A stretch of 28,744 nucleotides of DNA. Origin: a virus. The stretch's first letter is position 1; every line of letters begins with the position of its first letter. Both the position numbers and the translations under genes were made by a program. The notes below the pieces were generated by a model, which was not told the DNA's origin, did no database searches, and saw only the letters and a program-made list of their open reading frames with translations. Below, one piece after another: positions 22,593 to 25,571 of this stretch. Location of the stretch: the IMG/VR virus record IMGVR_UViG_3300010885_012914, positions 1-28,744 of that record; one strand, written 5' to 3'.

Positions 22593-23459
22593 TTAACGAC
22601 CTGACGATCCGAAGCCGAGTTCGCCCCGTTCGGAAGGTCGCAGAGTGCCTAGTTCAAAGGTTATCAGATCCGCTTCCAGTTTCAACGGCAACAACTGCCC
22701 GATCCGCTGACTAGGTTCGATCACCGAGTCCACTTTGCCATAGTTCCAACAGACAACATACAACTCGCCTCGAAACCCTGCATCAATGACCGAGAGCGGC
22801 ACGTGCAAGTTCAGTTTGCTGAATGTCGACGAGCGACCAACGATGATCGAGTAGTAGCCGTCAGGCATCTCTACTTTCACACCTGTTGGCACGGCTGCAC
22901 GTTCTCCAGCCGCAATCGTTAACGGTATCATACCGCTGTAAGCAAGGTCGAAACCTGCGTCACCTTTGTAGGCTCGTGTCAGTTGTTCGGTGTCGGTGTC
23001 GGTTTCATAGAACGCTGTCTTGATGTCTGCCTTGGCTCGCTGTGCCAGTGCGATGTTGCTGGTGACGAGCATCGCGATCGGGATCTCACCGACGTTGTAC
23101 ACTCGCACGTTTTTATGTTCAGACCAGTACAGTTCGACGATTGAACGCATACCGAACTCGTCATCGACTAGCAACACCACTGGTTTGCTAAGTTCCAACG
23201 CCAACGTGATCTCGGCTGGCACACCACGACTCAGCGTTTTTGCTGGTAGGTAGGCTAGAACGACGTCGGCTGTGCGTAACGCTTGTTCGTTCATTTGTTG
23301 CACTCTTGCGTCTAGTGGTGTTGTCACCACCCACGCCGTTTGAGGGTCGTAGGTGGTGACGCCGATCAACAGCGCTGCTGCTTCACGCACACGTTTGACT
23401 GTGGCTGTGCATTGATCGTTGGCGAAATCGATCGGGTGTGCGAAGTAGATCAACGCCAT
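22593..23459 (-). CDS. Deoxyribosyltransferase-like domain fused to dUTPase
   Basis: The 288-aa protein has two domains. Residues 1-110 resemble nucleoside 2-deoxyribosyltransferases: MALIYFAHPIDFA, ADVVLAYLP (Asp64) and PAEITLALELSKPVVLL, in which Glu83 matches the nucleophile position. Residues 155-288 are a trimeric dUTPase with all five motifs: DAGFDL (167-172), GRSS (208-211), VIDAGFRGEL (224-233), QRIGQL (251-256) and RGELGFGSSG (278-287). dUTPase keeps uracil out of DNA and provides dUMP. The extra domain may hydrolyse or exchange bases on a nucleotide; the substrate is unknown. It ends the operon that contains purZ and the MazZ-like gene, and its ATG overlaps the 66-aa gene by 10 nt. 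Confidence 0.88.
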   Translation of the reverse strand: MALIYFAHPIDFANDQCTATVKRVREAAALLIGVTTYDPQTAWVVTTPLDARVQQMNEQALRTADVVLAYLPAKTLSRGVPAEITLALELSKPVVLLVDDEFGMRSIVELYWSEHKNVRVYNVGEIPIAMLVTSNIALAQRAKADIKTAFYETDTDTEQLTRAYKGDAGFDLAYSGMIPLTIAAGERAAVPTGVKVEMPDGYYSIIVGRSSTFSKLNLHVPLSVIDAGFRGELYVVCWNYGKVDSVIEPSQRIGQLLPLKLEADLITFELGTLRPSERGELGFGSSGR

Positions 23460-23650
23460 ACGTTTCTCCTGATCGTGCTGTTCGGGTCGGGTCGCAATGT
23501 GGTTTCGTCGATGATGGCGTCATCGCGATCGATCCACAGCACAAGTTCGACTGTTCCGTTGATGTTGCAGCGGTGTTGTGCTTCGACAATGCCGTGCTGG
23601 TAGAGTGCTTTAGTGCGGCAGTAGTTAACTGCGTCTATGCCTTCGTTCAT
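23450..23650 (-). CDS. Small hypothetical protein between mazZ-like and dUTPase genes
   Basis: The 66-aa product begins MNEGIDAVNYCRTKALYQHG at the ATG at 23650, which overlaps the mazZ-like stop (ATGA). It has a helical first half and a beta-rich second half (GTVELVLWIDRDDAIIDE). A longer open frame across the region includes spurious upstream codons. Co-translation with nucleotide genes suggests a related role, but no family is recognised. Confidence 0.7.
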   Translation of the reverse strand: MNEGIDAVNYCRTKALYQHGIVEAQHRCNINGTVELVLWIDRDDAIIDETTLRPDPNSTIRRNVWR

Positions 23651-24015
23651 TTTGGCATCACTCCTGCTCGACCTGCTAACACCATTTTGCTGTAGACGGC
23701 TAGGTCGTGCCATGTGTCGTCTGATGCGGTGCGCCCTTGTTCGGCTGCGGTGATCACACGCTGGATTTTGCCCAGCGCGTAGAACATGATGCCCAACTCG
23801 TACATCTGTTCGTTGGTGAGTTCCAGCCCGTAAGAGCCAAGGTCGTCGATCTGTTTGTCGATGTCGACGCCTCGCACTTTCATCATCTGTCGCCCGATTT
23901 CGTGCAGGTCGCCAGTTCCATATTCGGCTAGTTTGTCCATCATGGCGTCGATCTCGGTGGTTGCTTGTCCGATCCACCAGTTGCGCAGTTTGTTTTTTGC
24001 TCGTGTGTTGAACAT
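23647..24015 (-). CDS. mazZ: MazZ-like MazG-family nucleotide pyrophosphohydrolase
   Basis: This 122-aa all-helical protein contains WWIGQATTEIDAMMDKLAEYG (shown as WWIGQATTEID and MDKLAEYG), DLHEIGRQM and YELGIMFYALGKIQRV, then SDDTWHDLAVYSKM. The spacing of the acidic residues (Glu21, Asp23, Glu31, Asp36, Glu39, Glu73 and the final Asp-Asp pair) fits the all-alpha NTP pyrophosphatase fold, and closely related actinobacteriophage proteins are annotated MazG-like. In Z-genome phages MazZ turns (d)GTP into (d)GMP for PurZ. Adjacency to purZ with a one-base TAATG overlap strongly supports that role. Substrate choice is not proven. Confidence 0.82.
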   Translation of the reverse strand: MFNTRAKNKLRNWWIGQATTEIDAMMDKLAEYGTGDLHEIGRQMMKVRGVDIDKQIDDLGSYGLELTNEQMYELGIMFYALGKIQRVITAAEQGRTASDDTWHDLAVYSKMVLAGRAGVMPK

Positions 24016-25133
24016 TAGTCGTTACTCCAGTCGTAGATTTGCATGTCGAGCATGTCGTGGTCGAACATCGCTGTTGCTTGTCCAGTGCCGTACATCGAGA
24101 AGGTTTGACCGACATCTGATGCTCGGCTGAGCACTTCTGCTTCTGCTTCAAGGTGTGAACCGTTGAACAGTTCAGTGATGTTGGTTTTTCCAGCGAGTGT
24201 TGGGTCGAGGTAGTCGACGAACATCAAGCACGGGTGCAGCGATTCGTTGTTGCCGCCGTTGGCTTGCACAGCGCGTTGCACGATGTCAGTGTCCCATTCG
24301 CCTACACGTCGCACCTTTTTGGTGACGGTGGTGAGTTCGGGTTTGATGTAGCCGCCGCTGCGTTCGCCGAGCAGATCCCAATTCAACTCGTTGTCGAGTG
24401 TGCCGCTGTTGCCTGCAACACGGATCGGGTAGGTGCGCATGACCAGCCATGTATGTATGGCGCGGCTGCGGTTCGGGTCGAGCGGCATGAAACCGATCTG
24501 TTGCAGCAGGTCAACAGTGCGACAGTCGCCACTTGTTGTCTGTGGGTAGTTCGCGGTGTGCATGCCTAGCCCGTAGCCTTGTGTGCCTTCAACGATGATT
24601 GTTGCACCTTTGTAGAACGCTGTGCCGATCATTTTGGCTGTGTCCATCATGTAGGGCGCAAGTTCTGCGATGTCGCGTGCTGTTTTTGCTCGGCGCATGA
24701 TCCGATCGGCACGTGCAGCGCCGATGCCTTTGGCTGTTGATCCTGTGCGTGCATTCAAGTCGCTACCTGTTTCGGCGTCGATGTGATGCTGTTCGATGAT
24801 CGTTGCCGACGGGTCGATGTAAAGTCGCGCTGAGACGTTGAAGTTCGCAGCGTCGAGTTGGTTGATCTCGTCGGTGAGCACGTTCATGTCGATCTCGCTG
24901 CCTTGTGCGATGATCAGTTTTGCCATCGGATCGATGACGGCTGCGGCTGGTATCTGTCGCAGCGCCCACACTCTACCGTCTTGATCGACGGCTGAGTGTC
25001 CAGCGTTGCTTCCCCCGACGCGCACCAGTTGCGTCACTGAGGTGCGCCCTTGGTAGTGGTCGGCTATTTGTGCTGCGACGTGTCCTTTGGCTTCGCTGCC
25101 AAACTGACCGCCGATGACGGTGTGAATTGCCAT
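24015..25133 (-). CDS. purZ: PurZ, 2-aminoadenylosuccinate synthetase for base Z
   Basis: The 372-aa protein is clearly related to adenylosuccinate synthetase PurA but has the marks of PurZ. The P-loop reads GGQFGSEAKGH, with Ser13 where PurA has its catalytic Asp (WGDEGKGK). The IMP-site region is RVGGSNAGHS, keeping Asn43-Ala-Gly-His46 but with Ser for one His. Further on come GSTAKGIGAARADR, EGTQGYGLGMH, YPQTTSGDCRT and KVRRVGEWD, which equals the aspartate-binding Arg loop of PurA. PurZ makes N6-succino-2-amino-dAMP from dGMP, Asp and ATP; host PurB then yields dZMP. The protein is shorter than PurA (about 430 aa), as PurZ enzymes are. AAGGAG precedes the ATG, and the mazZ-like gene follows directly. 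Confidence 0.93.
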   Translation of the reverse strand: MAIHTVIGGQFGSEAKGHVAAQIADHYQGRTSVTQLVRVGGSNAGHSAVDQDGRVWALRQIPAAAVIDPMAKLIIAQGSEIDMNVLTDEINQLDAANFNVSARLYIDPSATIIEQHHIDAETGSDLNARTGSTAKGIGAARADRIMRRAKTARDIAELAPYMMDTAKMIGTAFYKGATIIVEGTQGYGLGMHTANYPQTTSGDCRTVDLLQQIGFMPLDPNRSRAIHTWLVMRTYPIRVAGNSGTLDNELNWDLLGERSGGYIKPELTTVTKKVRRVGEWDTDIVQRAVQANGGNNESLHPCLMFVDYLDPTLAGKTNITELFNGSHLEAEAEVLSRASDVGQTFSMYGTGQATAMFDHDMLDMQIYDWSND

Positions 25134-25178: not shown

Positions 25179-25571
25179 TTACGCGGTTGCTTTGTCGCGT
25201 GCACGTTCTTCGACGTAGTTGCGCACTTCGTGCTTATACTGGTCGATCCGCTTGAAGCGGTGAGGGTTGTCTGCTATGAACTTGCGAGCCACGTTTTGCG
25301 AGCAGCCTGCGATCTCGGACAGTTGGCGTGTTGTGACCACGACGTAGGGGTTCGAGTTGCACCAGTCGGCTAGCGGCTGTTTGATGTCGTCCACTTTGAT
25401 CAGTGTTGGTGTGGCGTTGCGTGCTGCGGCTAGCATCTCGCGCAGTGTCGTGGCTGGCACGAGGTTGCGAACTCTGATCGGCACGTGGCACAGCGCTAGC
25501 GGCATGCCGTGTTGTTCGAGTGCTTCACGCATTGCGCGTGTCGCTTGGTCGGGTGTGGTGATGGTGTTCAT
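25179..25571 (-). CDS. Putative helix-turn-helix DNA-binding protein
   Basis: The 130-aa protein has a helical first half (ATRAMREALEQHGMPLAL; TTLREMLAAARNA) and a second half with VVVTTRQLSEIAGCSQNVARKFI, shown here as TTRQLSEIAGCS and QNVARKFI, which looks like a helix-turn-helix, followed by a basic helix. It precedes purZ by 45 nt. AAAGGACA lies before the ATG. It could regulate the nucleotide operon or act in replication. The family is not certain. Confidence 0.7.
   Translation of the reverse strand: MNTITTPDQATRAMREALEQHGMPLALCHVPIRVRNLVPATTLREMLAAARNATPTLIKVDDIKQPLADWCNSNPYVVVTTRQLSEIAGCSQNVARKFIADNPHRFKRIDQYKHEVRNYVEERARDKATA

Follow-up and report, generated by a model that had tools for sequence, protein, structure and literature searches.

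A PurZ0-type operon predicts diaminopurine DNA in a small, probably actinobacterial phage that appears to lack the PolA of its cultured relatives

An operon in which a purZ-like gene is followed by a small MazG-like candidate and a dUTPase poses the question whether the virus that carries it replaces adenine with diaminopurine (Z) in its DNA, and if so, how adenine is kept out. The locus lies in IMG/VR record IMGVR_UViG_3300010885_012914, a linear contig of 28,744 bp that was analysed over its whole length (here called the window). Translations and synteny identify terminase, portal, capsid and tape-measure genes on the contig, which also has an exonuclease gene and a WhiB gene (5.8e-19). The WhiB gene and the hosts of related phages point to an actinobacterial host. 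Judged by its sequence, the record thus probably derives from a small, uncultured actinobacterial siphovirus.

The operon predicted on the minus strand at 22593-25133 is real, and all its ORFs were recovered in place (Table 1). The one-base overlaps ascribed to it exist only at the junction of purZ and the 122-aa gene (TAATG), whereas the 122-aa and 66-aa genes overlap by 4 bases (ATGA) and the 66-aa and 288-aa genes by 10 bases. The 130-aa gene had been taken for an HTH protein. Its product has relatives in the genomes G004 and G005 (38% and 65% in blastp) but no match in Pfam or PHROG, and an HTH was not confirmed by any profile. The 66-aa protein likewise has no match in Pfam or PHROG, and its gene is kept between its two neighbours only in the closest clade (IMG/VR contigs L008-L013). 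PADLOC returned no match for three operon proteins, so that a reading of the operon as a defence system finds no support there.

Table 1. Operon genes and further features of the 28,744-bp window
Feature	Coordinates	Strand	Basis
purZ0, PurZ0-type succino-aminodeoxyadenylate synthetase, 372 aa	24015..25133	-	PF00709 and PurZ0 clade
F122, all-helical, 122 aa, probable dNTP pyrophosphohydrolase	23647..24015	-	synteny with purZ0, weak fold matches
66-aa protein, no family match	23450..23650	-	HMM matches only in L008-L013 and the window
dmtZ-dutZ fusion, 288 aa	22593..23459	-	PF05014 and PF00692
PrimPol-AAA protein, 725 aa	17319..19496	-	PF09250 7.9e-39, PF13481 2.6e-30
130-aa protein directly upstream of purZ0	25179..25571	-	kept in G004 and G005

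The 372-aa protein matches PF00709 (3.7e-36) and phrog_1211, '2-aminooxy adenylosuccinate synthetase' (3.3e-76), and scores 298.7 bits against the NCBIfam PurZ model, just below the cut-off of 300. Its closest solved structure is 7vf6 (3.7e-73). The best cultured relatives are actinophages of Gordonia, Streptomyces, Arthrobacter and Microbacterium (40-48%); PurZ carriers such as Vibrio phages and S-2L reach 27-31%. A phylogeny against PurA, PurZ and PurZ0 had been suggested as a check on the original prediction. In our maximum-likelihood tree of 65 sequences, for which IMG/VR relatives were gathered by a search with a PurZ0 alignment, each of the three forms one group with full support. The 372-aa protein falls inside the 33-row PurZ0 group (branch support 100/100), apart from both PurA and PurZ, and its nearest neighbours are the contigs L008-L013.

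The active-site residues are in line with this placement. Ser13 occupies the position of the catalytic Asp of PurA (GQFGSEAKG versus GQWGDEGKG in PurA); this residue is Ser in all 33 PurZ0 and all six PurZ sequences and Asp in all nine PurA sequences. In the TKxD guanine motif, the Asp is retained (D307). It is present in 33/33 PurZ0 and 8/8 PurA sequences, whereas 6/6 PurZ sequences have Asn or Gln. A guanine-type donor pocket is predicted for the 372-aa protein. GTP is the probable donor of PurZ0, in line with the conservation of D307 here. The text of PMC12884076 gives the order of ATP and GTP the other way round. With Ser in place of the catalytic Asp and full support for the PurZ0 clade, we reject a PurA identity. 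Because the tree and Ser13 identify a PurZ-type enzyme, and not PurA, in an actinophage operon, the prediction of Z-DNA, with diaminopurine for adenine, is sound. What did not hold is the assignment to the PurZ clade whose members go with MazZ and DatZ.

Ser at the Asp13 position was also seen in chromosomal PurA/PurZ-like proteins of bacteria and archaea (GQ[FY]GSEGKG; L115, L116, L128, L150 and many of 209 matches), which lie apart from phage PurZ in the tree. These proteins have an N-terminal kinase-like AAA fusion, and a DUF7002 gene comes next in the cases checked. PurZ-like genes of Lachnospiraceae and Pseudomonadales (L112:4980-7095, L119:4162-6235) branch beside phage PurZ plus PurZ0. 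The L112 gene is followed by one of dCTP-deaminase/dUTPase type, and a gene of similar appearance is present in L119.

The 288-aa protein had been described as a DRT-dUTPase. An NDT-like N-terminal domain (about residues 1-130; PF05014, 2.3e-7) and a dUTPase-fold C-terminal domain (about 158-288; PF00692, 5.5e-23) are indeed present, but the protein is best read as a DmtZ-DutZ fusion. The text of PMC12884076 characterises DmtZ and DutZ in the Gordonia phage Ghobes and a fused DmtZ-DutZ in the Arthrobacter phage Wayne. Aligned with Wayne gp53, the window protein shows 32% identity across 99% of its length. Its residues Y5, D11, P39, N57 and E83 correspond to Y6, D12, P57, N77 and E103 of Ghobes DmtZ, which were tested by mutation in that study, and they are invariant in 23 relatives. 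Trp124 of DmtZ, proposed there as a lid outside the catalytic triad, is replaced by Ile107. In the same text, DutZ converts dATP and dGTP, and also dUTP, to the monophosphates, while the Wayne fusion cleaves dAMP and forms dZMP. From these relatives, the 288-aa protein is predicted to hydrolyse dATP and dGTP and to cleave dAMP. The dUTPase fold is fused to DmtZ in the window, linked to purZ0, and it has the same place in relatives.

The 122-aa protein, here called F122, was expected to be a MazG-like protein of MazZ type. We found no match for it in Pfam, PHROG or NCBIfam; three relatives have no PHROG match, and 54 relatives gave only scattered, chance-level Pfam matches. The MazZ profile PF04447 recognises S-2L MazZ as a control (2e-11) but neither F122 nor its relatives, and hhalign gives a probability of 1%. 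On sequence grounds, the MazZ identity was therefore abandoned.

F122 is instead tied to purZ0. Homologues directly follow purZ in Goodman (gp55), Hiyaa (gp68) and Ghobes (gp51), and PurZ0 retrieved 80 IMG/VR loci, in 78 of which F122 comes after purZ0. The two remaining loci are L016, where the contig ends just after purZ, and the Arthrobacter-type L084, which has DUF5664 there. When loci were instead collected with conserved stretches from a closer subset of the F122 alignment, purZ was present in 68 of 70, and the two exceptions begin right at the edge of a contig or locus. Among 50,697 phage records, F122 occurs in 31, all in groups that carry purZ0 (18 Microbacterium, 6 Gordonia, 5 Streptomyces, 1 Micrococcus and 1 Curtobacterium phages), and three divergent queries returned the same breakdown. 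PurZ0 counts equal F122 counts in all these groups, with accessions matching one by one for Microbacterium, Micrococcus and Curtobacterium, and agreement by counts and listed records for Gordonia and Streptomyces. Arthrobacter phages, with 105 PurZ carriers, are without F122, and in those inspected DUF5664 occupies its slot. F122 itself does not match PF18909 (DUF5664), which finds Korra gp51 at 2.3e-31.

The AlphaFold model of F122 is a confident helical bundle (pLDDT 88.8, pTM 0.78), and K28, L37, Y79, K83, R86, D100, D104, Y108 and M111 are invariant in the family. Its matches among viral structures are orphans of PurZ0 phages first, followed by Nmad1 and DUF6378 proteins (Foldseek probability up to 0.99, but E 0.1-3). 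The phage domains Nmad1 (DUF1599) and DUF6378 have a K..R / D(S,T)..D...Y pattern in common with F122; the sequence match is not significant (hhalign probability 3%, and 3-4% for DUF6378, though the motif lines up). PF07659 (DUF1599/Nmad1) was not found in 198 genomes of one phylum. Foldseek against the PDB gave no significant match, and the F122 profile gave only chance-level matches to PDB sequences. In a second look at the PDB, DCTPP1, dCTPase, MazG and HisE reached Z 3.8-5.2, which is weak for a helical bundle (DCTPP1, Z 5.2, 3.7 A over 77 aa; MazG, Z 4.0, 2.7 A over 67 aa). F122 is a probable dNTP pyrophosphohydrolase. In the main text of PMC12884076, F122 is seemingly undescribed, and the terms 'Microbacterium', 'hypothetical' and 'unknown function' do not occur. 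F122 is a small, widespread family that can be assayed directly, also from the cultured phages Ghobes (gp51) and Goodman (gp55). If it acts on dGTP or dATP, the missing step of the PurZ0 pathway outside Arthrobacter phages would be gained.

Could the operon nevertheless encode a classical PurZ-MazZ(-DatZ) system, in which the 122-aa protein is a MazZ that makes dGMP and the dUTPase is an ordinary one? The gene sits where mazZ sits in S-2L, and the model would allow an all-alpha NTP-PPase fold. We nonetheless consider this unlikely, given the PurZ0 placement of the synthetase, the PF04447 and hhalign results for F122 and the lack of DatZ: PF13023 (DatZ, HD) has no match in the window or in any of 16 related records, although S-2L DatZ was detected as a control. 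A system confined to general purine and dUTP control, with ordinary DNA, appears very improbable. It draws on Table 1 of PMC12884076, in which the kcat of Wayne DmtZ-DutZ is highest with dUTP, and is opposed by the Ser13/Asp distinction from PurA, by the fact that dmtZ, dutZ and F122 travel with purZ0, and by the presence of the same gene set in phages that the text of that paper describes as Z-DNA phages.

With a PurZ0-type Z-DNA system as the preferred reading, the question becomes which polymerase copies the DNA. The PrimPol-AAA gene is the only polymerase-like gene found in the window. PolA (PF00476), detected in 22 of 50 PurZ0/PurZ records tested, has no match in the window or in 11 records drawn from its clade and from close neighbours, and profiles for PolB (PF00136) and PolIII-alpha (PF07733) likewise find nothing in the window record. 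The PrimPol profile PF09250 matches the window and 10 of the 11 PolA-less records; in L021, a PrimPol-like gene was seen only with a purpose-built profile. As contigs may be fragments, completeness was judged by gene order. In G004 (32.2 kb) and G005 (34.1 kb), the genes run from TerS round to lysozyme/HNH, and since lysozyme/HNH adjoin TerS in the window, the gene circle of both relatives looks complete. In G004 about 400 bp separate the last tail gene from the holin, the two genes at the ends of the window, so that the window is probably short of the full genome by only a few hundred bases. No PolA, PolB, PolIII-alpha or DatZ was found in the clade of the window, these gene-complete relatives included, and the lineage is apparently without the special DNA polymerase that its cultured relatives have. 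A second PolA-less group (L054, L068, L078, L081 and L039), whose contigs may be incomplete, suggests that PolA was lost more than once. G004 also encodes a 352-aa protein (L092:5252-6307) that is metallophosphoesterase-like by eye, has no Pfam match and was not seen in the window.

A precedent for this arrangement is the cyanophage S-2L (PMC8065100, PMC8342488), which also has no PolA and a PrimPol as its sole phage polymerase, and in which dATP removal is expected to exclude adenine. Its PrimPol does not discriminate between A and Z, and dATP is removed by its DatZ (PMC8065100). The enzymes differ, with PurZ, MazZ and DatZ in S-2L and PurZ0, F122 and DmtZ-DutZ, but no DatZ, in the window.

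We consider it likely that the operon is of PurZ0 type and that the nucleotide pool mainly excludes adenine. Here, DutZ, and probably also F122, would convert dATP and dGTP to dAMP and dGMP. PurZ0 would join dGMP and aspartate to N6-succino-2-amino-dAMP, probably with GTP, and host PurB and kinases would carry this on to dZTP. DmtZ would remove dAMP as adenine and could also pass its deoxyribose phosphate to the Z base. As no Z-selective PolA is encoded, adenine would be kept out mainly by the drain on dATP, while either PrimPol or an enzyme of the host copies the strand. The enzyme activities are carried over from relatives, pool-dependent exclusion is argued by analogy with S-2L, and Z in the virions and the function of F122 are likewise predictions. 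For this model count the observed gene identities and synteny, including the PurZ0 clade with S13 and D307, the DmtZ-DutZ catalytic residues, the F122-purZ0 link, the absence of PolA, PolB, PolIII-alpha and DatZ, and the S-2L precedent. Against it count the dUTP still accepted by DutZ relatives, the weak fold matches of F122 (Z 4-5; E 0.1-3), Ile107 in place of Trp124 and the occurrence of the PrimPol gene in PolA-bearing PurZ0 phages.

This last point bears on the role of PrimPol. As PF09250 is also found beside PolA, PrimPol may only prime here, with a host polymerase copying the DNA. Many small phages replicate with host Pol III. A PurZ0 system that relies on a host or unrecognised Z-tolerant polymerase, with PrimPol as primase only and some adenine perhaps remaining, is a possibility we would sooner doubt than accept, since PrimPol can be the sole phage polymerase in S-2L (PMC8065100). 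A more novel reading is that F122 is an unrecognised, PurZ0-specific dNTP pyrophosphohydrolase family and that pool control alone yields a complete Z genome without a Z-selective polymerase, independently of the S-2L route. We put this forward tentatively, at somewhat under an even chance. The operon and its relatives would set apart polymerase choice and pool control, two ways of excluding adenine, within one PurZ0 family.

The PurZ0-type diaminopurine gene set is a kind of system described in early 2026, and both the PurZ0-DmtZ-DutZ system and the operon order are already known. The suggestion that the order may be new fails on Wayne and Korra, which show purZ, hydrolase, small gene and NDT-dUTPase. 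Wayne (PMC12884076) has purZ0, the hydrolase slot, the small gene and the dmtZ-dutZ fusion in the same order as the window, but with DUF5664 (DUF5664-1) in the slot of F122; PolA is missing in the window clade. The PurZ0 of Ghobes (PMC12884076) is 40% identical to that of the window, and the C-terminus of gp51 is an F122 member. Unlike the window, Ghobes has dmtZ and dutZ as separate genes, as well as PolA and a purB-like gene. New, as far as checked, appear to be the uncultured small-phage lineage, the almost invariable pairing of the F122 family with purZ0, and the occurrence of PurZ0 where PolA is lacking. Adenylosuccinate lyase (PurB-like) genes lie near purZ0 in Ghobes (L003:1-543) and Hiyaa (L004:13471-14844), and some PurZ0 phages may thus supply the step assigned to host PurB themselves.
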